Under the pieces are notes generated by a model. That model had not been told where the DNA came from, did no database searches, and worked only from the letters and a program-made list of their open reading frames with translations. A stretch of DNA of 64,000 bases, from NCBI RefSeq assembly GCF_030718085.1, contig NZ_JAVAJF010000002.1, positions 434,001 through 498,000 on the forward strand. Reading direction: 5' to 3'. Source of the stretch: Marinobacter sp. MDS2. GTDB lineage: Bacteria; Pseudomonadota; Gammaproteobacteria; Pseudomonadales; Oleiphilaceae. The position numbers and the translations under genes are program-made. This document shows, piece after piece, positions 44,258-59,949 of this stretch (the stretch's first letter is position 1; each line of letters begins with the position of its first letter).

Positions 44258-44334
<77 letters not shown>

Positions 44335-44343
44335 TATAAAAGA

Positions 44344-44378
44344 AAGGCAGATCAGTAACTTACTGGTCTGCCTTTTTT
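44344..44378 (+). terminator. Rho-independent terminator of tRNA-fMet
   Basis: AAGGCAGATCAGTAA pairs with TTACTGGTCTGCCTT (one G-T pair) and runs into T6. Confidence 0.93.
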
Positions 44379-44403
44379 GCGTTTGGGGTGAGGGAAAATC
44401 CCT

Positions 44404-44440
44404 GTGACAAATATGTGACGTATTTGTGCCAAAACGTGAA
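44404..44440 (+). repeat. Helically phased GTGAC-like direct repeats, candidate integrase arm sites
   Basis: GTGAC, GTGAC, GTGCC and GTGAA begin at 44404, 44415, 44426 and 44436, that is every 10-11 bases; another GTGAC is at 44468. Within them ACAAATA and TATTTGT (44407-44427) also form a perfect 7-bp inverted repeat. Between the attachment tRNA and int/xis, this is where arm-type sites for recombinase or excisionase are expected. Confidence 0.5.
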
Positions 44441-44584
44441 AGCCCCAACTTGGGCTCATTTCCAAAAGTGACCGTAAGGCTTCTTGTGGCACAGAGTCTA
44501 ACTGCGGCGGACGTGCCCCCGCTTTCCCGCATTCTTTGGCCGGCTCCTTCCTTGGAATCGCTATGAAATGGGTTTCTTGTCTAT

Positions 44585-44791
44585 CTATTCGTCTTTCTGA
44601 AATTCCAGTAGATCACCGACCTCACATTCAAACAGTTTGCAGAGCTTATCGAGCGCGTCGAGCTCAATACGTTGGGCTGTTTCTTTGTAGAGAAGCGTCA
44701 CTGTATTTCGGTTGAGTCCTGTTTCTCGAGCTACATCCACAATCTTCATTTTATGCTCGCCCATCAGTCGGGCTAGGTGGCATCTAATCAT
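44585..44791 (-). CDS. Small XRE/Cro-C1 family regulator
   Basis: A 68-residue single-domain helix-turn-helix protein from the ATG at 44791, with AAGGAC upstream; a longer frame to 44848 exists. The motif reads VDVARETGLNRNTVTLLYKE, and the tail LDKLCKLFECEVGDLLEF is the usual last helices of the small Cro/C1 (YozG-like) class. It is divergent from the excisionase-integrase operon, and two operator-like sites lie between them. It probably represses that operon and itself. Confidence 0.88.
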   Translation of the reverse strand: MIRCHLARLMGEHKMKIVDVARETGLNRNTVTLLYKETAQRIELDALDKLCKLFECEVGDLLEFQKDE

Positions 44792-44817
44792 TAATTGAGT
44801 CGTCCTTAATGAACAAA

Positions 44818-44886
44818 TGTCATCCAGAATGGCAAAAAGTTCTTGCAAATGTACTTTTATTGCCTAAAATGCCATTTAGGGTGACA
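44818..44886. promoter_or_regulatory. Pair of inverted operator-like sites between regulator and xis/int operon
   Basis: TGTCATCCAGAATGGCA (44818-44834) and TGCCATTTAGGGTGACA (44870-44886) match as inverted copies at 14 of 17 positions. Each is itself an imperfect dyad of form TGyCA-N7-TGrCA. They flank the divergent promoters, the classic place for the small XRE regulator to bind. Confidence 0.65.
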
Positions 44887-44945
44887 TTCTGATACGAGGA
44901 ATGTCTTTTGTTGATCTAGAGTAGCGCAACAGAAGGAACAATTCG

Positions 44946-45191
44946 ATGGAAAATTCCTACACCTACCTGACTACTGAAGAATTGGCTGGTCGTATCAAAT
45001 ACGACTGCAGAACTATCCGTCAGTGTTTAAAAGACACGGTGCTGTTGGAGGGCAAGCACTACATCAAGCCGTTTGGTCGCAGGAAGATTCTTTTCCTCTG
45101 GGAGGAGGTTGAGAAAGAAATGTTGGTTAATGCTCGTGAGCATGAGCACTTGTCCATTCCAATGGCCAGTGGGGTGGTGTGTCATGGGTAA
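44946..45191 (+). CDS. Excisionase-like DNA-binding protein
   Basis: An 81-residue protein with an AlpA/Xis-like winged helix: YLTTEELAGRIKYDCRTIRQCLKDTVLLEGKHYIKPFGRRKILFLWEEVEKEM. AGAAGGAAC precedes the ATG. Its last codons overlap the integrase start by 8 bases, so the two are coupled. Excisionases bend attachment DNA and steer the recombinase toward excision; this role is inferred from position and fold. Confidence 0.8.
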   Translation: MENSYTYLTTEELAGRIKYDCRTIRQCLKDTVLLEGKHYIKPFGRRKILFLWEEVEKEMLVNAREHEHLSIPMASGVVCHG

Positions 45192-46413
45192 AGTGAGAGT
45201 GCGAAAAGAAACCGGGAAGCTGTACCTGGATTTTATGTACCGAGGACACCGCTGCCGCGAACAGACAGCGTTGCCGAATACGGCAGCGAATCGTAAGCGT
45301 GTTGAAGCGCTCCTGCAGAAAGTTGAAGCGAGCATTCTGGTGGGTTCATTTGATTATGCAGAGCAGTTTCCGCAGAGTAAGAACCTTAAGAAATTTCAGC
45401 CGAAAACAGGGAGTGGTGAAGTTAATGGTTCCGTACAAGCGGGGCCTGATACTGGAGAGCATACTCCTATGTTTTCGGATTTTGCTGATCAATGGTTTGC
45501 AGAAAGCAAAATTCAGTGGCGAAACTCCCACACTCGAAATGTGATCTCCATTCTCGAAAGCTCGCTCAAACCAGCTTTTAAGAACAAGCAGGTAGGCGAG
45601 ATCACTAAGGCCGACATTCTTGCCGCCCGGAACAAGATGGCGAAGCGTAAGGGCAGGGGAGCAAACGGCCTGATGTCGCCTAAGACCATCAACAGCCACA
45701 TGACGATCCTGCGGATGATTCTAACGGAGGCGGCTGAGCGGTTTGACTTCACGAATCCCTATCTGAACATAAAGCCGCTCAAGCAGCAGAGGGTACACAT
45801 CGAGCCTTTCTCCCTGAATGAGGTAGAAAAGATTCTCGAAACGGTCAGAGAGGATTACCACAACTATTACCTGGTGCGTTTTTACACCGGCATGCGAACG
45901 GGGGAGGTTGATGGCCTCAAGTGGGAGTACGTGGATTTTGAAAAGCGGGAAATCCTGGTACGTGAAACACTTATCCACGGCCAAACCGAGTACACAAAAA
46001 CGGACGGCTCACAAAGGGAAATTCCAATGTTTGGCCCCGTGTACCAGGCACTCAAATCCCAGTACGAGGCAACCGGCAAACTCAGCAAGTTCGTATTTTG
46101 TAACCGGCTGGGAGAGCCGCTGGACCACAATAACGTGACCAAGCGTGTTTGGTACCCTTTGTTGGAACACCTCAAGCTGAAGAAACGCAGACCCTACCAG
46201 ACCCGGCATACAGCTGCGACGCTACTCCTCGCGTCGGGAGAAAACCCGGAATGGGTCGCCCGCACTCTGGGCCATTCCTCAACGGAAATGCTGTTTAAAG
46301 TGTATTCCCGCTATATCCCGAACCTGACTCGCATGGATGGCAGCGCCTTTGAGCGACTGATTCAGAGTCGGGTCATCGAAAACGATAAGGAGGTAGGTGA
46401 TGAAACTGAATGA
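45184..46413 (+). CDS. Tyrosine-type site-specific integrase
   Basis: A 409-residue recombinase from ATG 45184 (MGKVRVRKETGKLYLDFMYRG), which gives a family-like arm-binding N-terminal domain (DUF3596-like); the frame is open further upstream. The core-binding domain is about residues 100-190. The catalytic domain shows Arg in TGMRTGEVDGLKW, His-x-x-Arg-type residues in QTRHTAATLLLASG, HSS in ARTLGHSS, and the nucleophile Tyr in VYSRYIP. It catalyses integration at the tRNA-fMet. It overlaps the following HD gene by 14 bases. Confidence 0.95.
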   Translation: MGKVRVRKETGKLYLDFMYRGHRCREQTALPNTAANRKRVEALLQKVEASILVGSFDYAEQFPQSKNLKKFQPKTGSGEVNGSVQAGPDTGEHTPMFSDFADQWFAESKIQWRNSHTRNVISILESSLKPAFKNKQVGEITKADILAARNKMAKRKGRGANGLMSPKTINSHMTILRMILTEAAERFDFTNPYLNIKPLKQQRVHIEPFSLNEVEKILETVREDYHNYYLVRFYTGMRTGEVDGLKWEYVDFEKREILVRETLIHGQTEYTKTDGSQREIPMFGPVYQALKSQYEATGKLSKFVFCNRLGEPLDHNNVTKRVWYPLLEHLKLKKRRPYQTRHTAATLLLASGENPEWVARTLGHSSTEMLFKVYSRYIPNLTRMDGSAFERLIQSRVIENDKEVGDETE

Positions 46414-47353
46414 TCTACGCCCGTTGATGCAGGAAACTTTTAAAGGCACCTACCGACTGACGGGGCGTGTTGCCTGTTTTGATGATGAAGGCATTCCGTA
46501 TCTGAAACTTCGGTTAAGCAGCTGTGCCAGCGACATCGTGGTTCTGGCGGTAATTGGTTCTATATTGATTCCAGAGCACTTGGGCCACATGGATCTGGTC
46601 GTGGTCAAAGGGCAGGTGTGTGTGGGTGCGGAGGAAAGTGAGATCCTGCTGACCGATATCCGCCGCCCGTTGCAGGCAGACGTTGCCGGCTTGCCTGCAT
46701 TGCAGACTTTGCCACGGACGTTCTGTCCGAGACCGGAGGCACTGGATCAGCTGGTGGCTGCGGTTCGGTCTTTGCAGTCAGCCCCGTTACAGATGTTCAT
46801 TAAGCGAGTATTGGAGCGCCGTGACAGGCTGGAAGTCTTTCTAAAAGCTCCGGCGAGCAGGAATTACCATCATAACGAGCCTGGCGGGCTGCTGGCTCAT
46901 TCCTTGGACGTGGCGAAGAACGTAGTGGTCATGACGAAGACCAATGAACCAGACATGCCACGAGAACTTCAGGAACTCGGTTTCGTCGCTGGTTTGTTGC
47001 ACGATATTGGCAAGACCTACACCTATGATACGTGGGGTAAGCCGACAGCAACTGCAAGGTTGTGCGACCATGCCGACATGACTTTAGAGGCCTGCGCCTA
47101 CGGCCTGGCTTATCTTGACAAGGTAGACCCTGATGCGGCTCTTGCACTCCGGCACATTTGGACCTGTGCCTCGCCCGGTGCTCGCTACGGTGTCAGCCCT
47201 GCGATGACGCTTGCCCGCTACGTTCGGGACGCCGATGCCCAGAGTGCCATGGCTGACAATCAGCGGAAGGCCTATCGAAAGCGCCAGTCAATCGGTTTTG
47301 GGCGGCTCGGAAACAACACATATTGGCGGCCATCGATAGAAGCTCATGGATGA
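46400..47353 (+). CDS. HD-domain phosphohydrolase with N-terminal OB-like domain (YhaM/TraI_2-like)
   Basis: A 317-residue protein. The ATG at 46400 follows AAGGAGG closely and is preferred over the GTG one codon earlier. The N-terminal 110 residues look like an OB fold (LTGRVACFDDEGIPYLKLRLSS...VVKGQVCVGAEESEILLTDIRRP). The HD domain has HHNEPGGLLAHSLDVA and GLLHDIGKTYTYD, plus DHADMTLEA. This layout is that of YhaM-type 3'-5' exoribonucleases and of TraI_2 HD proteins in integrative elements. Its overlap with the integrase makes it part of the same operon. Confidence 0.85.
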   Translation: MKLNDLRPLMQETFKGTYRLTGRVACFDDEGIPYLKLRLSSCASDIVVLAVIGSILIPEHLGHMDLVVVKGQVCVGAEESEILLTDIRRPLQADVAGLPALQTLPRTFCPRPEALDQLVAAVRSLQSAPLQMFIKRVLERRDRLEVFLKAPASRNYHHNEPGGLLAHSLDVAKNVVVMTKTNEPDMPRELQELGFVAGLLHDIGKTYTYDTWGKPTATARLCDHADMTLEACAYGLAYLDKVDPDAALALRHIWTCASPGARYGVSPAMTLARYVRDADAQSAMADNQRKAYRKRQSIGFGRLGNNTYWRPSIEAHG

Positions 47354-49506: not shown

Positions 49507-49522
49507 CTGTATATTCAAACAG
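49507..49522 (+). promoter_or_regulatory. LexA box (SOS operator) of the umuD-umuC operon
   Basis: CTGTATATTCAAACAG fits the CTGT-N8-ACAG consensus exactly, 16 bases before the umuD start. DNA damage should induce the operon through LexA cleavage. Confidence 0.92.
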
Positions 49523-49537
49523 TATCCGGTGTAAAGC

Positions 49538-49981
49538 ATGTCCTGCATTCTGCTTGGTGACTACGAATCCGTCTCACGCCTGAACATCCCGATGTTTCTT
49601 GAACGGGTCTCGGCTGGCTTCCCATCGCCGGCGGAGGACTACGTTGAGAAAACCATTGACCTGAACGAGCTGTGTATTCAACACCCGGCTGCCACGTTTT
49701 TTGTGCGAGTGCAGGGAGAGTCTATGGTTGAGGCGGGCATCTATCCCGGCGATGTCCTGGTGGTGGACCGGTCGCTGAGGGCCAAGCACGGAGACATCAT
49801 CATCGCCAGCCTGGAAAGCGAGATGACGGTGAAGCAATTGCATTTGACGCCACCGCCCGTTCGGCTCCTTCCACGGAATTCAGCGTACCGGCCTATTACC
49901 GTCGAGGGCGATATGGTGATGGAGGTGTTTGGGGTGGTCACCAACGTCATCCGGTCACTCAAGCGGGGAGGGCAGGGATGA
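49538..49981 (+). CDS. umuD: UmuD-like DNA polymerase V subunit (LexA-type autopeptidase)
   Basis: A 147-residue S24-family autopeptidase. The cleavage region reads SAGFPSPAEDYVE with an Ala-Gly bond where E. coli UmuD has Cys-Gly. The catalytic serine is in VQGESMVEAGI (about residue 62) and the lysine in EMTVKQLHL (about 99). Cleaved UmuD' dimers join UmuC as polymerase V for error-prone lesion bypass. Under a LexA box; it overlaps the next gene by 4 bases. Confidence 0.96.
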   Translation: MSCILLGDYESVSRLNIPMFLERVSAGFPSPAEDYVEKTIDLNELCIQHPAATFFVRVQGESMVEAGIYPGDVLVVDRSLRAKHGDIIIASLESEMTVKQLHLTPPPVRLLPRNSAYRPITVEGDMVMEVFGVVTNVIRSLKRGGQG

Positions 49982-50727
49982 CACCTGAATCGGCAGTATC
50001 CTTTGCCACCGTAAGACGACGGTTCGATTTTCGCAGCATCGAGGTCGGACGCTGGGTGACGCCTCAGGAGCGGGACCGGGCAGCCGGCCGGTTCTATCAG
50101 GCGCTTTGTGATTTGATGACGATCCTGCGAGGACCGGAGCCATTGATCTCCCTGAGGAGCACGCTGGGCCTACAGTATGGCATCGGCGGCCGGTTGGGCG
50201 TGGCGGCGCACTACATTCCCGCCACCCGGCAACTGGCGCTGGCCAAGAACGCTGGTGCGGGTAGCCTCGCTCATGAATGGTTTCACGCCTTTGATCACTA
50301 CATGGGTGGCAAAGCTTACCGGAATGCCGGACCGTGCGGCTTCGCTTCCAGTGCCTGGCTGAACAGCGTAAGCAGTAAACCCCACCCACTGAATGAACGG
50401 CTAGGCGCCTGCTTCCAGGCCATCATGCTGACGGAGGGCGGCACAGCGCCGAGCACTTTGTTCCGAGCCGCCCAGGTGGCCGATCAGCACTTGAAAACGG
50501 TTTATTACGCCAAACCGGAGGAGCTGTGCGCTCGCGCCTTTGAAGCCTTCATTGAAGACAGCCAGCCGCGTAACCGATTTCTGGTAAACGGAACCGTTCA
50601 CTCTGATGAAGCCAAGGCGGGTCTGTATCCGCAGGGCGAGCATCGCCAGCGTATCAATGACGCCTTTCAGTATTACTTTGCCGCTCTCGGGGCTGCGCTG
50701 TATCGGGAACAGGCCAAAGCCGGATGA
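49978..50727 (+). CDS. HExxH metallopeptidase-like protein between umuD and umuC (LPD1/CLCA_X-like)
   Basis: A 249-residue protein whose centre reads SLAHEWFHAFDHYMGG, an HExxH zinc motif at His99-Glu100-His103. A similar core is seen in large polyvalent proteins of plasmids and phages (LPD1-like). It overlaps both umuD and umuC by 4 bases, so it is translated with polymerase V and under the same SOS control. I infer a role in the SOS or DNA-transfer response, perhaps as a protease, but no substrate is known to me. Confidence 0.8.
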   Translation: MTPESAVSFATVRRRFDFRSIEVGRWVTPQERDRAAGRFYQALCDLMTILRGPEPLISLRSTLGLQYGIGGRLGVAAHYIPATRQLALAKNAGAGSLAHEWFHAFDHYMGGKAYRNAGPCGFASSAWLNSVSSKPHPLNERLGACFQAIMLTEGGTAPSTLFRAAQVADQHLKTVYYAKPEELCARAFEAFIEDSQPRNRFLVNGTVHSDEAKAGLYPQGEHRQRINDAFQYYFAALGAALYREQAKAG

Positions 50728-52010
50728 GGAAGCCTGTGTTCGCCCTGGTGGACTGCAATAACTTCTATGCCTCCTGCGAGAAGCTGTTCCGTCCGGATCT
50801 TCGTCATACACCGGTTGTGGTGCTGTCCAACAACGACGGCTGCGTCGTCGCCCGTTCCAAAGAAGCCAAGGCGCTGGGGATCAAGATGGGCGTGCCGGTT
50901 CATCACATTAAACCGGAAATTCGCCGATACGGCATCCAGGTGTTCTCCTCCAACTACACCCTCTATGGCGACATGAGCCGGCGGGTGATGACGACTCTGG
51001 AAGCCCTGGCTCCCAAAGTGGATGTCTATTCCATCGATGAAGCCTTTCTGGACCTGACCGGCATTGACCGGGTGGTGTCCTTTGAGGACTTTGGGCGAGA
51101 GGTCAGGAACACGGTGTATCAGAACGCCGGCTTACCGGTCTGTGTGGGCATTGCTCCGACGCGAACCCTGGCCAAGCTGGCCAACCATGCCGCCAAGAAA
51201 TATCCAGCCACTGGAGGCGTGGTCGATCTGACGGACCCCGACAGGCAACGGCGGCTGATGGTGCGGGTACCGGTTGAGGAGGTTTGGGGTGTCGGGCGAA
51301 AACTCAGTGCCAGGCTTCAGGCCATGGGTATTGTCACGGCGTTACAACTAGCGGATACCCATCTGGCAACGCTCAGAAAACAGTTCTCTGTGGTGTTGGA
51401 ACGCACCGCCCGGGAGCTCAATGGCGTGCCCTGTGTTCCGTGGGAGGATGTGCCGGCCCCGAAGAAGCAAATCATGTGCTCGCGATCGTTTGGTCAGCCC
51501 CTTCAGAAATTGAGCGACCTGGAAGAAGCCGTGGCGCACTTTGCGACTCGCGCGACCGAGAAGCTACGGGGAGGCCAGCAGTATGCTGGGGAACTGATGG
51601 TGTTCATCCGAACCAACCCGTTCAAAACCGCAGCGCCGCAGTATTCACGCAGTGCCAGCGTGAAGCTCATCCAGCCCAGCCAGGACTCCCGGATTATTGT
51701 GCAGCAGGCTCTGAACCTGCTTAGACCGATGTATCGGGAAGGATTTGATTACGCCAAGGCCGGCGTAATGTTGGGGGAACTGGTGGGTGAGTCGGGTGTT
51801 CAGGAGGATCTCTTCCAAGCCGCGCAGGAGCAGGCGCCAGACAGTGGCAGATCGGAACGCCTGATGGCGGTGATGGATACCATCAACAGGAAGTCCAGGG
51901 CGACGGTCTACATGGCCAGAGAGGCCGGGTCTGCGGCCTATGCGATGCGGCGTGGGCATTTGTCGCCGGCGTATACGACAGATTGGGCAGCTTTACCCTG
52001 GGTAAAGTGA
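50724..52010 (+). CDS. umuC: DNA polymerase V catalytic subunit UmuC
   Basis: A 428-residue Y-family polymerase. It has ALVDCNNFYASCEKLFRPDL (first catalytic aspartate), VYSIDEAFLDLTG (Asp-Glu pair), the helix-hairpin-helix VWGVGRKLSARLQAMGI, and the UmuC C-terminal domain ending in TDWAALPWVK. It performs mutagenic translesion synthesis with UmuD'. Island-borne umuDC sets are common on mobile elements. The HNH gene converges on it with only 4 bases between stops. Confidence 0.97.
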   Translation: MRKPVFALVDCNNFYASCEKLFRPDLRHTPVVVLSNNDGCVVARSKEAKALGIKMGVPVHHIKPEIRRYGIQVFSSNYTLYGDMSRRVMTTLEALAPKVDVYSIDEAFLDLTGIDRVVSFEDFGREVRNTVYQNAGLPVCVGIAPTRTLAKLANHAAKKYPATGGVVDLTDPDRQRRLMVRVPVEEVWGVGRKLSARLQAMGIVTALQLADTHLATLRKQFSVVLERTARELNGVPCVPWEDVPAPKKQIMCSRSFGQPLQKLSDLEEAVAHFATRATEKLRGGQQYAGELMVFIRTNPFKTAAPQYSRSASVKLIQPSQDSRIIVQQALNLLRPMYREGFDYAKAGVMLGELVGESGVQEDLFQAAQEQAPDSGRSERLMAVMDTINRKSRATVYMAREAGSAAYAMRRGHLSPAYTTDWAALPWVK

Positions 52011-52014
52011 CCCG

Positions 52015-52662
52015 TTAAGTGGAGCGAGGTAGCTGCAGTAATGCTTTTATGTCGTCAGGGCTCTGTTCTTTGCCGCCATAGTGCAGTGCTGCGTGGCAGT
52101 TCGGGCATACCGGGATCAGGTCATTAATGGGATCTACTTCATACTGCTCGCCGATTTTCGAGATCGGGACAATATGATGGACGTGTATGAAGCCTTGAAA
52201 GTCCGCTCCATAGGTTTGCGCAAAATCGAAGCCGCAGATCAGACAAGCCGAGCCGTGGTGTTCGATACAAGCGGCCCTGGCTGCAGGGCTTCGTTCATAA
52301 CGGTTTACAGTAACGGACCTCCGAGCGCCCTCCCAGACTGAATCGGGAACTTCTTCCGGTATCGAAGCCGTTTGTTCATCCAGCGCTAGGGCGACCACAG
52401 TGAACCCGAGCTCTTCGAGTTTTGGGACAACGGTGGCAAGACCACCGGAAAACTGCTTAGACGACAATGGCGTGCCAAATTGATAGCCGTGTGCGGCACC
52501 AACAATGGCTTTGGAGTCGTAGCTTCTCCCGCCATGAATAAGTGCAAAGGTGCGGGCTTTGCCAAAACCGTAACGCTTTAGAAACACCTCTTGTCCCAGC
52601 TGGTCGTACTCGGCTATCGCCTCCAGGACGGCCTTGGGATCATTTAGGTCTTTCAAACTCAT
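52015..52662 (-). CDS. ScoMcrA-like HNH endonuclease
   Basis: A 215-residue protein from the ATG at 52662, chosen for AAAGGA 8 bases upstream; the frame is open to 52785. Residues 1-92 match the N-terminal domain of ScoMcrA: LNDPKAVLEAIAEYDQLGQEVFLKRYGFG and GRSYDSKAIVGAAHGYQFG. Residues 120-215 form an HNH nuclease: ACLICGF, VHHIVPIS, and CPNCHAALH, with zinc cysteines 140, 143, 186, 189 and general-base His162/163. ScoMcrA cleaves methylated or phosphorothioated DNA; this shorter protein keeps the recognition-like domain and the nuclease only. It lies 289 bases downstream of a second nuclease. Confidence 0.9.
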   Translation of the reverse strand: MSLKDLNDPKAVLEAIAEYDQLGQEVFLKRYGFGKARTFALIHGGRSYDSKAIVGAAHGYQFGTPLSSKQFSGGLATVVPKLEELGFTVVALALDEQTASIPEEVPDSVWEGARRSVTVNRYERSPAARAACIEHHGSACLICGFDFAQTYGADFQGFIHVHHIVPISKIGEQYEVDPINDLIPVCPNCHAALHYGGKEQSPDDIKALLQLPRST

Positions 52663-52951
52663 GGGACGAATCCTTTCAATTAGACGTTCACCGAAATACA
52701 CCATGCCATGATAACGCGTGACTGTGCAGACAAGTTTATTTCCTTCGATCGTCAGTAATCCACCGTCGAATCCAGTCCAAAGCACCTTCTGATGGCTGAA
52801 TTACGCACACCGCGAACCTCTCCAAGCACCACGTCTTGTTCTGATACTCAAGCGATCTGGTTAAACGCTCTGGGTGGACCATTCGGATTAAACGTAGACT
52901 GGAGACAGGTAACGTAATACCCTGCCTCCATTTCATCTTGCTGTAGCTGAG

Positions 52952-53878
52952 CTATCCTAGCTGTGTTAAGTCTTCAATAAACTCATCGCGGCTAGGATAG
53001 ATGACTCCAACGTTGCAGTGTCTTAGATAATCTAATAAATCTTTGCGTGGCATTTCTGGAACTAATACTGCTTTTCTTGGCCTTGACTCAATGAAACGCT
53101 CATAGTCCATTAACTGACCAACAGCACTTCGTAGATACTCTCTTGCTGTGGAGCCTTTTGCTTCTATTAGAAGGTTGTCAGAATGGTCAAATATATCAGT
53201 AAATAGAGGTTTTTCCTCGCCTTTTGGTTTTATTTTGAGGCGTTCAAGAATGATTCCATTCTCCTTCTTCCATTTTACGTATTCTGTTACTAATGAAGAC
53301 TCCCTTCTTTCTGCAGTAACCTCACCTTTGGCCGGAGTGTAGTAAGCCCTTTCAGTGTGGTTGTTTTCGATAGGCACGGTATCAGTCGTAGTTTCATCCG
53401 GTATGATCGGTAGGCCTTTGGAGTATTCTGGGGTCCTGTTCAGAGGCTTTAACCGAAACTTGATAACCTTTCTTAAGGCGCCTGTCCCTTTTTTGCCGTC
53501 CGGTCCATCCGTTTCGTAATAGTCGACGAGCTTAAACTGTCCCTCATAAGACACGGGTTTTCCTTTTGATGTGCCTAGAAATAGATGCAGTTCCTTGCCA
53601 AGCCTTTCGTGCTCGAGGATCGCCTTGTTACCCCTCTGAAATATTTGGTCGCCGTCTTGACCTTCACCGCAATAGTGGAAGTAGCCATCCTGAAACCAAC
53701 CGTCGTAGTAGCCATACTGTTCGCCAGCGGTTGGCGTGCTAAACAGCATTACGATTTTTTCGACAGATGAAGGGCTAATACCGCTTCGGATTTGTCCCCC
53801 GATTGCTTCGTGGAGGTCGCTACGCTTGATTGTGCTACCGACTTTCAGATCTGGGAAGTGTTTTTCTAAGATATTCAT
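52952..53878 (-). CDS. SRA-like domain plus PD-(D/E)xK endonuclease (modification-dependent restriction type)
   Basis: A 308-residue protein. Residues 40-145 read like an SRA/YDG domain: GYYDGWFQDGYFHYCGEGQDGDQIFQRGNKAI, the fold that flips out modified cytosine. Residues 190-300 are a PD-(D/E)xK nuclease, with Asp228 in FTDIFD and Glu239-Ala-Lys241 in LLIEAKGST. There is no methyltransferase gene nearby, as expected for a modification-dependent enzyme. It has clearly lower GC than its neighbours. GAGG precedes the ATG. It lies between the HNH nuclease and the WYL-Argonaute pair on the same strand as the WYL gene. Confidence 0.88.
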   Translation of the reverse strand: MNILEKHFPDLKVGSTIKRSDLHEAIGGQIRSGISPSSVEKIVMLFSTPTAGEQYGYYDGWFQDGYFHYCGEGQDGDQIFQRGNKAILEHERLGKELHLFLGTSKGKPVSYEGQFKLVDYYETDGPDGKKGTGALRKVIKFRLKPLNRTPEYSKGLPIIPDETTTDTVPIENNHTERAYYTPAKGEVTAERRESSLVTEYVKWKKENGIILERLKIKPKGEEKPLFTDIFDHSDNLLIEAKGSTAREYLRSAVGQLMDYERFIESRPRKAVLVPEMPRKDLLDYLRHCNVGVIYPSRDEFIEDLTQLG

Positions 53879-54207: not shown

Positions 54208-55083
54208 TCAGAGAATCAGGTCTTTCAGCGTATGCCGATTGGCCAAAGCCAATTGATGAGCTTTCGGGTTAGCCCGGGTTTGTGCGGGCGTACCAATCTT
54301 TAGTGCAATGGCCATATACATTACTAGGGGCGAACGCACCCATATTCGTAGCGTATTGTCGGGCTCCATAGCGTAGTCATCAGCCACCAGTTGTTGTTGC
54401 TCCGGCTGCAGCGCGGGATTAGGTGTCAGTACCATCTCAACTTCTTTAAACCATTCAATATCATTGGACGGTTTCCCCAACTCCAGGCGTTCGCCTTCCA
54501 AATCGGGCACATCGACGAACCGGTGTAGCATGAAGTCCTTGAAAACCCGGTCTCGCTCGCAAAATGCCCGGACATGCCAGCGACCGTCGGCAAACACCAG
54601 TGTGTGAGGGGCAATCAGCCGCTCTTCGCCACAAGGGTTGGCGAAGGATCGATAACACACATTGATACGCTGGCCCTCACGAACTGCCTGCAAGATGACG
54701 CGAACGATCTCGGGATTAACGGGGCGAGTTAGGGATGGCAATCTGTCTATTGGGGCTCGCCCTGTTTGCAGGGCGTAGAAATAGTTGTTGTGTATGGATT
54801 CACTGTGCAGCAAATTCAGATACTCATGTACCTCACCGTGACTGAAACTGGGCCGAAACTGCGGTTCGAGGACGTAGCCCCTTGTCTGGCTGCAGTGACG
54901 GATATTATCTGGTACCGCTCTTTGGTATGACTTGATGATTTCTGAAGCTTTGCTTCGGCCAATGGCAAACGCCACTTTAAGATGGTTAGTCGTGAGACGC
55001 CCTTCCCAAAGGGCAACAACTTCGATCAGGTGGAACTGAGCAACGCGCTCCCAGGTAAGTGCTGTGTCGATGTTTGCATCCAT
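54208..55083 (-). CDS. BrxR/CapW-type WYL-domain transcriptional regulator
   Basis: A 291-residue protein. An N-terminal winged helix (WERVAQFHLIEVVALWEGRLTTNHLKVAFAIGRSKASEIIKSYQ) is followed by the WYL domain (about residues 120-195, with NVCYRSF, IAPHTLVFADGRWHVRAFC and FKDFMLHRF) and a WCX-type C-terminus. Length and layout match BrxR/CapW, which repress phage-defence operons and respond to infection. The start at 55083 is favoured by this homology and because a palindromic operator lies upstream; the frame is open to 55161, which would put that palindrome inside the gene. Divergent from the Argonaute gene. Confidence 0.88.
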   Translation of the reverse strand: MDANIDTALTWERVAQFHLIEVVALWEGRLTTNHLKVAFAIGRSKASEIIKSYQRAVPDNIRHCSQTRGYVLEPQFRPSFSHGEVHEYLNLLHSESIHNNYFYALQTGRAPIDRLPSLTRPVNPEIVRVILQAVREGQRINVCYRSFANPCGEERLIAPHTLVFADGRWHVRAFCERDRVFKDFMLHRFVDVPDLEGERLELGKPSNDIEWFKEVEMVLTPNPALQPEQQQLVADDYAMEPDNTLRIWVRSPLVMYMAIALKIGTPAQTRANPKAHQLALANRHTLKDLIL

Positions 55084-55108
55084 ATAAACACACGGGTCTG
55101 CTTGAAAT

Positions 55109-55136
55109 TTGGACAGATTGTAAATCTGTTCAGTAT
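55109..55136 (+). promoter_or_regulatory. Argonaute promoter with a palindromic operator between -35 and -10
   Basis: TTGGAC (55109-55114) and CAGTAT (55131-55136) are 16 bases apart. The perfect palindrome ACAGATT-GTA-AATCTGT occupies 55113-55129, filling the spacer. A WYL dimer bound here would block RNA polymerase. Promoter assignment is by pattern only. Confidence 0.65.
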
Positions 55137-55200
55137 CGCATGATCGGCAGCGCTTCGGCATCCTCAGGACGACTAGTTAATTCGAAAGGGATGCACTGAT

Positions 55201-57453
55201 ATGGCGTTAGCTCAGGAACAGGTCGGCCTTTTGGCGATGGGGCTTGATTGCGACCTGAACAAGGTCTCTGTTCACCGTTATCGCGTGATCGTTGAGTCAG
55301 GTCTCAATGAAAACGAATCTCAGGCTCAGCAGAGTCGAAAAGCGGCCAGGCTCACATCAATCAAGAACAACTGGCAACCCGTAACCGATGCGGGTCTCTT
55401 TCTGGTTGTTACCCTGCAACCCCTAGAAATACTCAACATCGAAATCTATGGATTTAAATGCACTCTTGAGCCTGAAGGAGAAGGGGTACTCGAGGCAGCT
55501 AAAGAAGGGGAAAGGGCTGCGATTGAAAGGTTACTGAACCAGGATCTTTATCGCGCCGCCTTGAGTCTGGCAAAGGATCGAAACCCCTCTCATGGGCGAG
55601 CCCTGAAGGCATCTCGGAATAGCTCTGGCTGGGTTGAGCTTGAAGAAACTAATCCATCAGACAGAGTCAGCACAAAGGCTGCTTATCTGGATTTGTTCAA
55701 AACTCTGCGACTGATACCGGAACTTCTACCGTGCGGAAAGGTTATTCTTGGACTTACGCTTCGCCACAAAATATGCGCCCGGGATGGCATTACTGTCGAC
55801 TGGGTGATCAACAAACGTCCGGAATGGCTCACGGCTATCAAGCGTGTACGTCACCGTTACACTGACCATGGTAGACCGCGGGGTGTGGCCCATTTTCATG
55901 GAGTGGCGAATGATAAAACTGTTAATTCAGCGGTGCCTGGTATGCCGCATACCCTTTATAGCTACCATGAAGAAAAGGGCCATATCCCCCCAGGGCAAGC
56001 TCAAAGTGTCCGGGCCAGCCATGTAGTTAAAGTGAGCTACGGGCGCAAGGACAGATTTGATCACCTGGGCGCGCTGCTGGAACCCATGTTTGACTTTGAA
56101 ACCCTCCAGAAGATTGATAGCCCATTGCTCAATAGGATGGCCAGGGATCTAAAGTGGCCGATCATTGATCGACTGCAAGCCAGCGCCGGGATGGTAAAGG
56201 GCCTGAGGTTGCCGGGATTTGGGACAAAGGTTGTGCCGGTTACATCGCTGGAGAATGCTGCGGATAATATCTGTCCGCCATTCAGTTTGACCTTTCACAA
56301 TGGCCGTACCAGCGACACTGAAAAAGCAGTATTAGCCCTAGGCGCTTTCCGCGGCATGACCCGTTCTCAGGTTGTTTGCCTAGCGGTCGGTACCAGCGTT
56401 ACGTCAGATGTATTGAGTAGACACTTCTATAAGTTGCGAGAATCCTGCCAAAGATTGTCAGCCGGTCCATTACCTAAGTGGCTAGGTATGACCACACCTA
56501 AGCCACTGAAGGATGCCCAGGAGTTGGATAAACGACTGGCTGATACCCCGCCTGAGAATACGCTGTTAGTGGTTGCCATTGACAGGTCCGTTGACAAGGC
56601 GACGATCAGAGATGTGGCGTTTCGTCATAAGTTGGCCTGCCAATTCATGCTCACGGATCATAACCCAAAGACATACCAAAACAGCTATTACAACAACCTG
56701 GCGGCCGGAGTGTTCAGTAAAGGAGGTGGTTTGATTTGTGGCCTGGGTGAGATGCCGGGTGAGGTGGATCTGTTCATCGGTCTGGACATGGGTGGAGTAT
56801 CGCAGCGAGCACCGGGCTCAGCTTTTTTGTTTACCTGCAACGGGGCGCAGCTTGGTTGGCAATTGGCCGATTTGCAAAGCGGCGAACGCCTTGAAGACGA
56901 AGCTCTGAAAAGCCTACTGCATAAAAGCATTCAAGAGTATCGCCACCACCATAATGGAGAACCGCCACGCAAGATTACCATTCACCGCGATGGCCGATTT
57001 TTTGAGAGCCTGGAGGTCATAAGGGATATTGAGCAACAGTATGACATCAATATCAATGTGCTTGAGGTGATTAAAAGCGGTGCCCCGATCCTGTTCCGAA
57101 AATATCAGCATTCCGGGCAGAGAAAGTACCGAAATCCCGAAGTGGGGGACGTCTATCGCTATGTCGGTCTCGACGAGCTCATTCTGGCCACCTATAGCGG
57201 TCAGGAGCTAGGCGTCTGGGGCGAAAAAGTCAGTGTGAGGCCACTTCGCTTGCGAAAACGCTACGGTAAACAATCGTTGGATATCATGGCTCAACAGGTT
57301 CTGCTTTTGAGTCGCATTCATGGTGCATCTCTGTATCGCCACCCAAGGTTACCAGTGACCACGCATCATGCGGATCGCTTTGCGACTCTGAGGCAATCGT
57401 GCAGCCTTGACGCACTTTCTCATATGGACAGAGCCTGTCCGGTATATTTGTAG
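55201..57453 (+). CDS. Prokaryotic Argonaute (long, catalytically complete)
   Basis: A 750-residue Argonaute. The PIWI domain (about residues 520-750) has all four catalytic positions: Asp529 (FIGLDMGG), Glu562 (SGERLEDE), Asp597 (HRDGRF) and Asp724 (TTHHADRFA), with spacing close to Thermus Ago. The MID domain (about 445-520) keeps Gln481 and Lys507, but the first pocket pair is Lys466/Arg470 instead of the usual Tyr/Arg/His-Lys. The region 245-300 looks PAZ-like, so this is a long pAgo; it ends in a hydrophobic CPVYL like other Agos. Guide-directed nuclease activity is expected. No TIR, Sir2 or other effector gene adjoins it; a BrxR-type regulator is divergent. Confidence 0.95.
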   Translation: MALAQEQVGLLAMGLDCDLNKVSVHRYRVIVESGLNENESQAQQSRKAARLTSIKNNWQPVTDAGLFLVVTLQPLEILNIEIYGFKCTLEPEGEGVLEAAKEGERAAIERLLNQDLYRAALSLAKDRNPSHGRALKASRNSSGWVELEETNPSDRVSTKAAYLDLFKTLRLIPELLPCGKVILGLTLRHKICARDGITVDWVINKRPEWLTAIKRVRHRYTDHGRPRGVAHFHGVANDKTVNSAVPGMPHTLYSYHEEKGHIPPGQAQSVRASHVVKVSYGRKDRFDHLGALLEPMFDFETLQKIDSPLLNRMARDLKWPIIDRLQASAGMVKGLRLPGFGTKVVPVTSLENAADNICPPFSLTFHNGRTSDTEKAVLALGAFRGMTRSQVVCLAVGTSVTSDVLSRHFYKLRESCQRLSAGPLPKWLGMTTPKPLKDAQELDKRLADTPPENTLLVVAIDRSVDKATIRDVAFRHKLACQFMLTDHNPKTYQNSYYNNLAAGVFSKGGGLICGLGEMPGEVDLFIGLDMGGVSQRAPGSAFLFTCNGAQLGWQLADLQSGERLEDEALKSLLHKSIQEYRHHHNGEPPRKITIHRDGRFFESLEVIRDIEQQYDININVLEVIKSGAPILFRKYQHSGQRKYRNPEVGDVYRYVGLDELILATYSGQELGVWGEKVSVRPLRLRKRYGKQSLDIMAQQVLLLSRIHGASLYRHPRLPVTTHHADRFATLRQSCSLDALSHMDRACPVYL

Positions 57454-58847: not shown

Positions 58848-58941
58848 TGGCTTTACTTGACCAGCACAAGAATCTAGCATGACGTAGCGTCAGAATGTGT
58901 CGCTTAAGCTGTCGACTTCGAGAAAAGACAAAGATCCCGCC

Positions 58942-59949
58942 ATGTCCAGCACTGCCGTTCGCTACCTCACCATGCTCCGGATGGTGCCCCGGTACCCAAG
59001 ATCCATCACCACCACCGAACTGGCGAGCCGCCTGGAAGAGCAGGGCTTTTCGGTAACCATGCGCTCGATCCAGCGGGATCTGGAAAAGCTGAGTGCAGAT
59101 TTCCCTTTGTTGGTTGATGAAAACTCCCGGCCTTACCGCTGGTCGTTTGATCGCAATGCGACCATGGACATCATACCGGCGCTGGATCTGCCGGCAGCAC
59201 TCACGTTTGAGCTGGCGAAGGCCTACCTCTCACCAATGCTGCCCCCAAGGGCGCTGTCCCACTTAAAGCCTCACTTCGATGAAGCCCACCGCACGCTGTT
59301 GCGTGAAAAGAACCCCCTGGGCCAATGGCCAGACCGGGTCAGGGTGATCAATCGGGGGTTAGGAGGTGCGCGCCCGCCTGTTGATGTCGATGTTCTGGAA
59401 GCGGTCACCGAAGCCTTGCTCCGGGAATACCAGTGCAAACTTACGTATCAGGCTCGCAGCTGGCCGGAGCCGGAAGAGATTGTGGTGCATCCATTCGGGC
59501 TTATCTTCCGGGACCCGAACGTGTACCTGATTGGTACCATCGAAGGCAGGGAAGGGGTTCGCCAGCTGGTGTTGCACAGGGCCACGGCCGGTGAGGTAGT
59601 GGAAGAGCTCATCGAGCGCCCGGAAGATTTTGATCTGGATTTGTACATCCACTCCGGCGCCATGGGTATTCTGAAATCCGATGAGCCGGTGTATCTGAAG
59701 TTACGCTGCGACAAACCGGTGCTGAACCACCTGATCGAATCCCCACTGGGATTTGATCAGATCACCACCGAGATTGATGACCAGACCTTCGAAATGGCCG
59801 TCACCGTGGGCGACACCCAGGACTTGCGCTGGTGGCTTACCGCTCAGGCGGTGCATTGCGATATTCTGGAACCGGCTTGGTTGCGGGATGAGATTGAAGA
59901 CACGCTCAAGCAGGGGCTGAAGCGGACGCGGCAGGCCAAGTCTTGTTAG
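58942..59949 (+). CDS. WYL-domain transcriptional regulator (DeoR-like HTH type)
   Basis: A 335-residue protein. Residues 1-60 form a DeoR-like winged helix (TTTELASRLEEQGFSVTMRSIQRDLEKLSADFPL). The WYL domain runs from about 160 to 220 (CKLTYQARS, EIVVHPFGLIFRDPNVYLIG), followed by a WCX domain (about 245-325). It differs in layout from the BrxR-like regulator beside the Argonaute. Start at 58942 is chosen over 58897 by domain fit. Its target is unknown; the divergent unknown gene pair is the nearest candidate. Confidence 0.9.
   Translation: MSSTAVRYLTMLRMVPRYPRSITTTELASRLEEQGFSVTMRSIQRDLEKLSADFPLLVDENSRPYRWSFDRNATMDIIPALDLPAALTFELAKAYLSPMLPPRALSHLKPHFDEAHRTLLREKNPLGQWPDRVRVINRGLGGARPPVDVDVLEAVTEALLREYQCKLTYQARSWPEPEEIVVHPFGLIFRDPNVYLIGTIEGREGVRQLVLHRATAGEVVEELIERPEDFDLDLYIHSGAMGILKSDEPVYLKLRCDKPVLNHLIESPLGFDQITTEIDDQTFEMAVTVGDTQDLRWWLTAQAVHCDILEPAWLRDEIEDTLKQGLKRTRQAKSC

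Follow-up and report, generated by a model that had tools for sequence, protein, structure and literature searches.

A complete long Argonaute gene of Marinobacter paired with a divergent BrxR/CapW-type regulator gene

Introduction

In the bacteriophage exclusion (BREX) islands of Acinetobacter and of E. fergusonii pEFER the regulator BrxR, a protein with winged helix-turn-helix (wHTH), WYL and WCX domains, adjoins the defence system and binds to a site upstream of its own gene (PMC9122601; PMC9122589; all citations refer to excerpts of the respective articles). BrxR represses the adjacent operon (PMC9122601). CapW of the cyclic-oligonucleotide-based antiphage signalling systems (CBASS) belongs to the same family and similarly represses an adjacent immune operon (PMC9122588). 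CapW and BrxR repress until single-stranded DNA (ssDNA) is bound (PMC13373217). In V. cholerae the WYL gene VC1772 is located upstream of ddmDE; a regulatory role was suggested and is under study (PMC12409362). Here we describe a divergent gene pair from Marinobacter sp. MDS2, which consists of a gene for a long-type prokaryotic Argonaute (pAgo), ago, and a gene for a BrxR/CapW-type regulator. The pair occupies positions 54208..57453 of the window, i.e. the whole stretch of 64,000 nucleotides of contig NZ_JAVAJF010000002.1 which was analysed.

The Marinobacter regulator shares the domain composition of BrxR and, with CapW, the residues of the WYL pocket. The partners are different. BrxR is connected to a downstream operon and CapW to a cyclic-nucleotide system, whereas here the partner is a single divergent Argonaute gene. 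With ddmDE the locus has in common a WYL gene beside a long pAgo gene, VC1772 being compared by description only. However, DdmE lacks catalytic activity and acts together with the helicase-nuclease DdmD. The window Argonaute has a complete catalytic tetrad and no such conserved partner; a DdmD-like helicase-nuclease was absent among the scanned open reading frames (ORFs) adjoining ago. A first-pass annotation, made from the letters of the window, was not aware of any described system of this form. In what we consulted of the open-licence PMC literature no such system with a catalytically active pAgo was found, and PMC12409362 was the only article with a WYL gene beside a pAgo gene; VC1772 next to ddmDE is thus a partial precedent. 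The control of pAgo genes is little discussed in the same material. A large survey of pAgo neighbourhoods assembled operons from same-strand genes only; thus a divergent regulator would be missed, and by word count WYL is absent from its text (PMC6299218). By the same count the words pAgo and Ago are absent from the BrxR survey (PMC9122601).

Results and discussion

A conserved divergent gene pair

The ago gene (55201..57453, plus strand) and the regulator gene (54208..55083, minus strand, start at 55083) are on opposite strands and separated by 117 bp, just as the first-pass annotation had it. It also proposed to count divergent pairing across genomes. Argonaute loci were collected by a scan of genome contigs, which yielded 12 loci. 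For want of usable upstream DNA the pairing count excluded L007 (124 bp) as well as two C-terminal pieces at the ends of contigs, L006 and L012. A divergent BrxR-type regulator gene was found at the same place in all six subfamily Argonaute loci with readable upstream DNA. With the window as a reference, the Argonautes were 80% identical in Marinobacter persicus (L002), 71% in Nitrincola tapanii (L003), 70% in Marinobacterium marinum (L004) and 68% in Marinospirillum minutulum (L005). The sixth locus, L030, is from a Nitrincola metagenome-assembled genome. Its Argonaute pieces are 96-98% identical to the homologue P0016 and 57% to the window; both genes are split into frames, perhaps due to low-coverage sequence.

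No third gene was common to the five intact pairs up to 10 kb on each side (blastp E 1e-6, ORFs of at least 80 amino acids; L003 was limited to 1.6 kb upstream). Two extra pairs are suggested only by same-size contigs (54754 and 108996) in protein listings. The Argonaute and regulator identities are correlated (r = 0.91), a value matched by 7 of 5040 permutations with the observed order counted; seven pairs were used, including the two matched only through same-size contigs.

The subfamily is rare, and the bacteria that carry the pair are a small marine group. Surveys of 163 genomes at the family level, 390 at the order level and 369 at the class level had three Argonaute matches each, mostly the same loci, and the family of genome G218 had 3 in 116. 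The class match in G652 was weak (2.3e-5) and was excluded. A class survey with PF02171 gave too few matches to serve as a background (5 of 369 genomes matched, 3 above cut-off). BrxR-family matches are common at the order level (159 of 390 genomes, with up to six candidates scored per genome). Just three of them exceeded 500 bits, all adjoining this Argonaute, and the next had 333 bits. Argonaute was absent from the flanks (up to 1.5 kb) of all 28 other BrxR-family loci examined. The flanks of L032, L033 and L034, the three loci of the PF02171 survey outside this subfamily, contained no BrxR match.

The intergenic control region

The distance between regulator and ago is 108-117 bp for the five intact pairs, with 132 bp for L030. 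The gap contains a conserved non-coding block of 45 bp (55097..55141), the presumed operator/promoter for both genes, which starts 13 bp ahead of the regulator start codon and ends 59 bp ahead of ago. Its limits were drawn by eye once the alignment was seen. The block is under selection: in all ten pairwise comparisons of the five intact loci it was 80-98% identical, whereas fourfold-degenerate sites of both genes were 22-55% and the remaining gap 47-68% identical. The block core is also present in L030. In the genome of the window a 30-bp block core is single-copy (up to 3 mismatches allowed); thus, there is no second obvious regulator target of that kind.

The conservation in six of six loci, the lack of any other shared gene and the conserved non-coding block led us to reject a chance neighbourhood. 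The first-pass annotation had suggested a dedicated, infection-responsive WYL repressor for a long Argonaute. As the two genes form a conserved unit and share a strongly conserved control region, a dedicated regulator is well supported, although for one subfamily only; repression, and its relief by infection, are proposed by analogy with characterised BrxR and CapW proteins. Within this Argonaute subfamily the pairing is real, conserved and probably regulatory.

A perfect inverted repeat, ACAGATT-GTA-AATCTGT (55113..55129), is located inside the block; it is imperfect in the other loci. It may also be read as 6-bp arms with a 5-bp spacer, and a half-site spacing of 5 bp is quoted for Acinetobacter BrxR (PMC9122589). 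BrxR/CapW regulators typically bind to an imperfect palindrome of some 20-25 bp close to their promoter. Here the block is conserved and symmetry is weak outside the window. We do not claim the same operator as that of Acinetobacter BrxR because the quoted site and the block did not match by eye (PMC9122589).

Other readings of the region were considered and rejected. A 26-amino-acid N-terminal extension of the regulator, which would account for the conservation of the block, is interrupted in three of the five loci by an in-frame stop without an upstream start; nonetheless, 317 amino acids are given for 3 of the 16 closest listed regulator homologues. Rfam at gathering thresholds reported four tRNAs only, and an RNA element was dismissed. 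Control by LexA was likewise discarded: the gap lacks CTGT-N8-ACAG, and the lone such site in the window is at 49507.

The regulator

The regulator has 291 amino acids. Precomputed Pfam matches of P0031, the protein of the window, are PF26109, PF13280 and PF26107, which we read as wHTH, WYL and WCX-like domains. The assignment to the BrxR/CapW type in the first-pass annotation was borne out by sequence and structure. BrxR was the best match by both, and the six best matches of the structure search were all BrxR/CapW; the CapW-ssDNA structure 9c5g ranked fourth. DriD and PafBC are far from the regulator (13-18% identity). The presumed ligand pocket consists of Y144, K182, F184 and R188. Tyrosine, phenylalanine and arginine are invariant in 17 of 17 sequences, and position 182 is lysine or arginine. 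The WYL pocket of CapW is made up of Tyr145, Arg183, Phe185 and Arg189 (PMC9122588); the equivalence was judged by eye from alignments.

In Acinetobacter BrxR the segment S37-R38-Q39-Q40 is among the DNA contacts (PMC9122589). The SRQQ of this protein and its close homologues is not kept in the window regulator, which has G42-R43-S44-K45 instead. All six paired regulators carry GR[SN]KAS in the recognition segment. Among the best 120 of 264 regulator homologues, GR[SN]KAS was present in 16 and [G/S/A]RQQAS in 92, while six had other letters and six did not match the pattern. The 16 are the full-length homologues with at least 55% identity, and in a tree of full-length sequences they form a single clade with a support of 0.999. 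Pairing evidence covers five of these 16: a neighbouring Argonaute was demonstrated for P0031, P0035 and P0041 and is suggested for two by same-size contigs. The window regulator thus belongs to a separate subfamily with changed DNA-contact residues. SRQQ does not define the family since E. fergusonii BrxR differs as well (PMC9122589). We take GRSK in place of SRQQ to indicate an altered DNA specificity. Both the changed contacts and the conserved block would fit a regulator with an operator of its own.

A second BrxR-family regulator, with GRQQAS, is encoded in the genome of the window (L070:7531-8430; G000:C1 about 1961081-1961917). By eye its neighbours are housekeeping-like rather than defence genes. 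Within the order sample each of the 16 genomes from this genus, among them G000, had a BrxR-family match as strong as that of this paralogue. Another BrxR-family gene, in L073:7850-15939, is divergent to ORFs which by eye resemble a type I-F CRISPR (clustered regularly interspaced short palindromic repeats) locus.

The Argonaute protein

According to ORF translation and alignments the ago product has 750 amino acids and an N-L1-PAZ-L2-MID-PIWI architecture. N, PAZ, MID and PIWI domains are all present over about 700 residues, i.e. it is a four-domain long pAgo. Identity to the structurally solved long bacterial Argonautes of the TtAgo/CbAgo/CpAgo/KmAgo kind is 16-20%. The DEDX tetrad, assigned via alignment to CpAgo and CbAgo, consists of D529, E562, D597 and D725 and is invariant in 25 of 25 aligned sequences. 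The first-pass annotation had correctly reported four catalytic acids, yet placed the last at Asp724; residue 724 is an alanine and the fourth acid is D725. In the MID region K466, R470, Q481 and K507 are invariant in the alignment. Their spacing resembles what we take to be the 5'-phosphate pocket in the MID domain of TtAgo. The catalytically complete protein probably is a DNA-guided DNA nuclease.

A bounded Argonaute clade could not be upheld. The node joining the P0001-P0015 types had a support of 0.10, and the nodes adding P0016 and P0017 had 0.79 and 0.96, respectively. An Argonaute relative in Aromatoleum (L013:9950-11326) is cut down to MID-PIWI. It comprises 458 amino acids, begins at query residue 309 and retains the motifs GLD, HRDG and HHADR. 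Its gene is directly 3' of one that encodes an AbiEii-like AAA ATPase.

Proposed mechanism and alternatives

BrxR and CapW repress their neighbours, the structure search matched CapW with ssDNA, and the pocket residues are conserved. On these grounds we propose that the regulator represses ago and itself and is released by ssDNA. The locus would then be a two-gene defence cassette, a complete long Argonaute with its own divergent BrxR/CapW-type repressor, and this we consider rather likely. A regulator dimer would bind to the 45-bp block, within a promoter region common to both genes, and keep their expression low in healthy cells. Replication of a phage or plasmid, or DNA damage, would yield ssDNA. 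Upon its entry into the WYL pocket the dimer would let go of the DNA, and Argonaute would be produced and take up guides directed at the invader. If the pair works in this manner, it is a testable case of an Argonaute induced by infection or by DNA damage. It would also explain how cells can carry a nuclease that might harm them, and BrxR/CapW control would extend to Argonaute defence. With just two genes and a short conserved block, the system is easy to test in a laboratory strain.

A more far-reaching version is tentative, and we are inclined to doubt it. It would make this the first inducible long Argonaute, with synthesis gated by an ssDNA-sensing WYL repressor. ssDNA might both switch on the gene and supply, or reflect, guides and products, so that the response to replicating invaders would amplify itself. 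The contact residues might then have diverged so as to insulate the regulator from the core BrxR-family paralogue in its genome.

Several observations speak against a repressed, ssDNA-released cassette. Within the available flanks a regulator was absent in all six more distant Argonaute relatives, i.e. three loci from Pseudoalteromonas (L008, L010 and L009, the last with just 0.9 kb upstream and an IS110-like gene there) and those from Methylotuvimicrobium (L011), Aromatoleum (L013) and the Hydrogenophilus plasmid pTH1 (L021). Neither the paired nor the unpaired six are fully independent: L003 is close to L004, and L008-L010 all stem from Pseudoalteromonas. The palindrome is statistically weak, as arms of 7 bp were reached by 91 of 2000 shuffles. 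Its symmetry amounts to 8 of 10 arm pairs in the window and to 5, 5, 6 and 2 of 10 in L002-L005. A consensus scan detected no sigma-70 promoter in the gap (shuffles average 0.4), which leaves an overlap of the block with the ago promoter conjectural. Some WYL regulators are activators. Finally, CBASS protection did not need CapW-dependent induction (PMC9122588), hence an inducible system is not necessarily a better defence.

The main rival is that the regulator activates ago, its ssDNA-bound form recruiting RNA polymerase to a weak promoter as DriD and PafBC do. As sequence and structure group it with the BrxR/CapW repressors, and DriD and PafBC are distant at 13-18% identity, we consider this unlikely. 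Alternatively, the regulator might control itself and a type IV restriction-like gene pair downstream, with ago as a mere neighbour. An SRA-like gene (52952-53878, minus strand) and an HNH gene (52015-52785, minus strand) do follow the regulator in the window on the same strand, and BrxR was counted with downstream genes, type IV enzymes among them, in 37 of 210 systems (PMC9122601). However, these genes are not common to the five intact neighbourhoods, in which only ago and the regulator recur, and the latter two co-diverge. This renders such an arrangement quite improbable. The group is small and its Argonaute rare (3 of the 390 genomes at the order level and 3 of the 163 at the family level), and the link could also be a hitchhiking relic: pair and block may have been co-inherited in a handful of lineages with no functional tie. 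This hardly agrees with a non-coding block that is far better conserved than fourfold-degenerate sites, nor with the absence of a shared flanking gene among the five intact pairs, and we give it very little credence.

Genomic surroundings

The SRA-like and HNH genes (52015..53878) each match, in part, models of type IV modification-dependent restriction, the Pfam match of the SRA-like gene being weak; they are not conserved with the ago-regulator pair. The regulator-less loci L008, L010 and L011 have common genes upstream of ago which by eye are type I restriction-like; in L008 one was confirmed as a specificity subunit.

A phage or plasmid home of the pair was rejected. IMG/VR had no match by profile patterns or the block pattern. 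Phage records contained one match (30.8% over 32% of the protein) and plasmid records 34, of which only one covered at least 80%, at 48% identity. At 44258-47353 of the window a tRNA-Met precedes genes of the arm-type integrase and TraI_2/HD kinds, which suggests an integrated element. No direct repeat of at least 14 bp from the tRNA-Met region was present in the window and the next 19 kb to mark an island end. At 49507-52010 the LexA-like box is just ahead of S24 peptidase, LPD1 and umuC-like genes. A second, distinct WYL-WCX regulator is encoded at 58897-59949, 1.4 kb downstream of ago; its gene overlaps the end of a 5'-nucleotidase gene which matches the PADLOC candidate PDC-S08.
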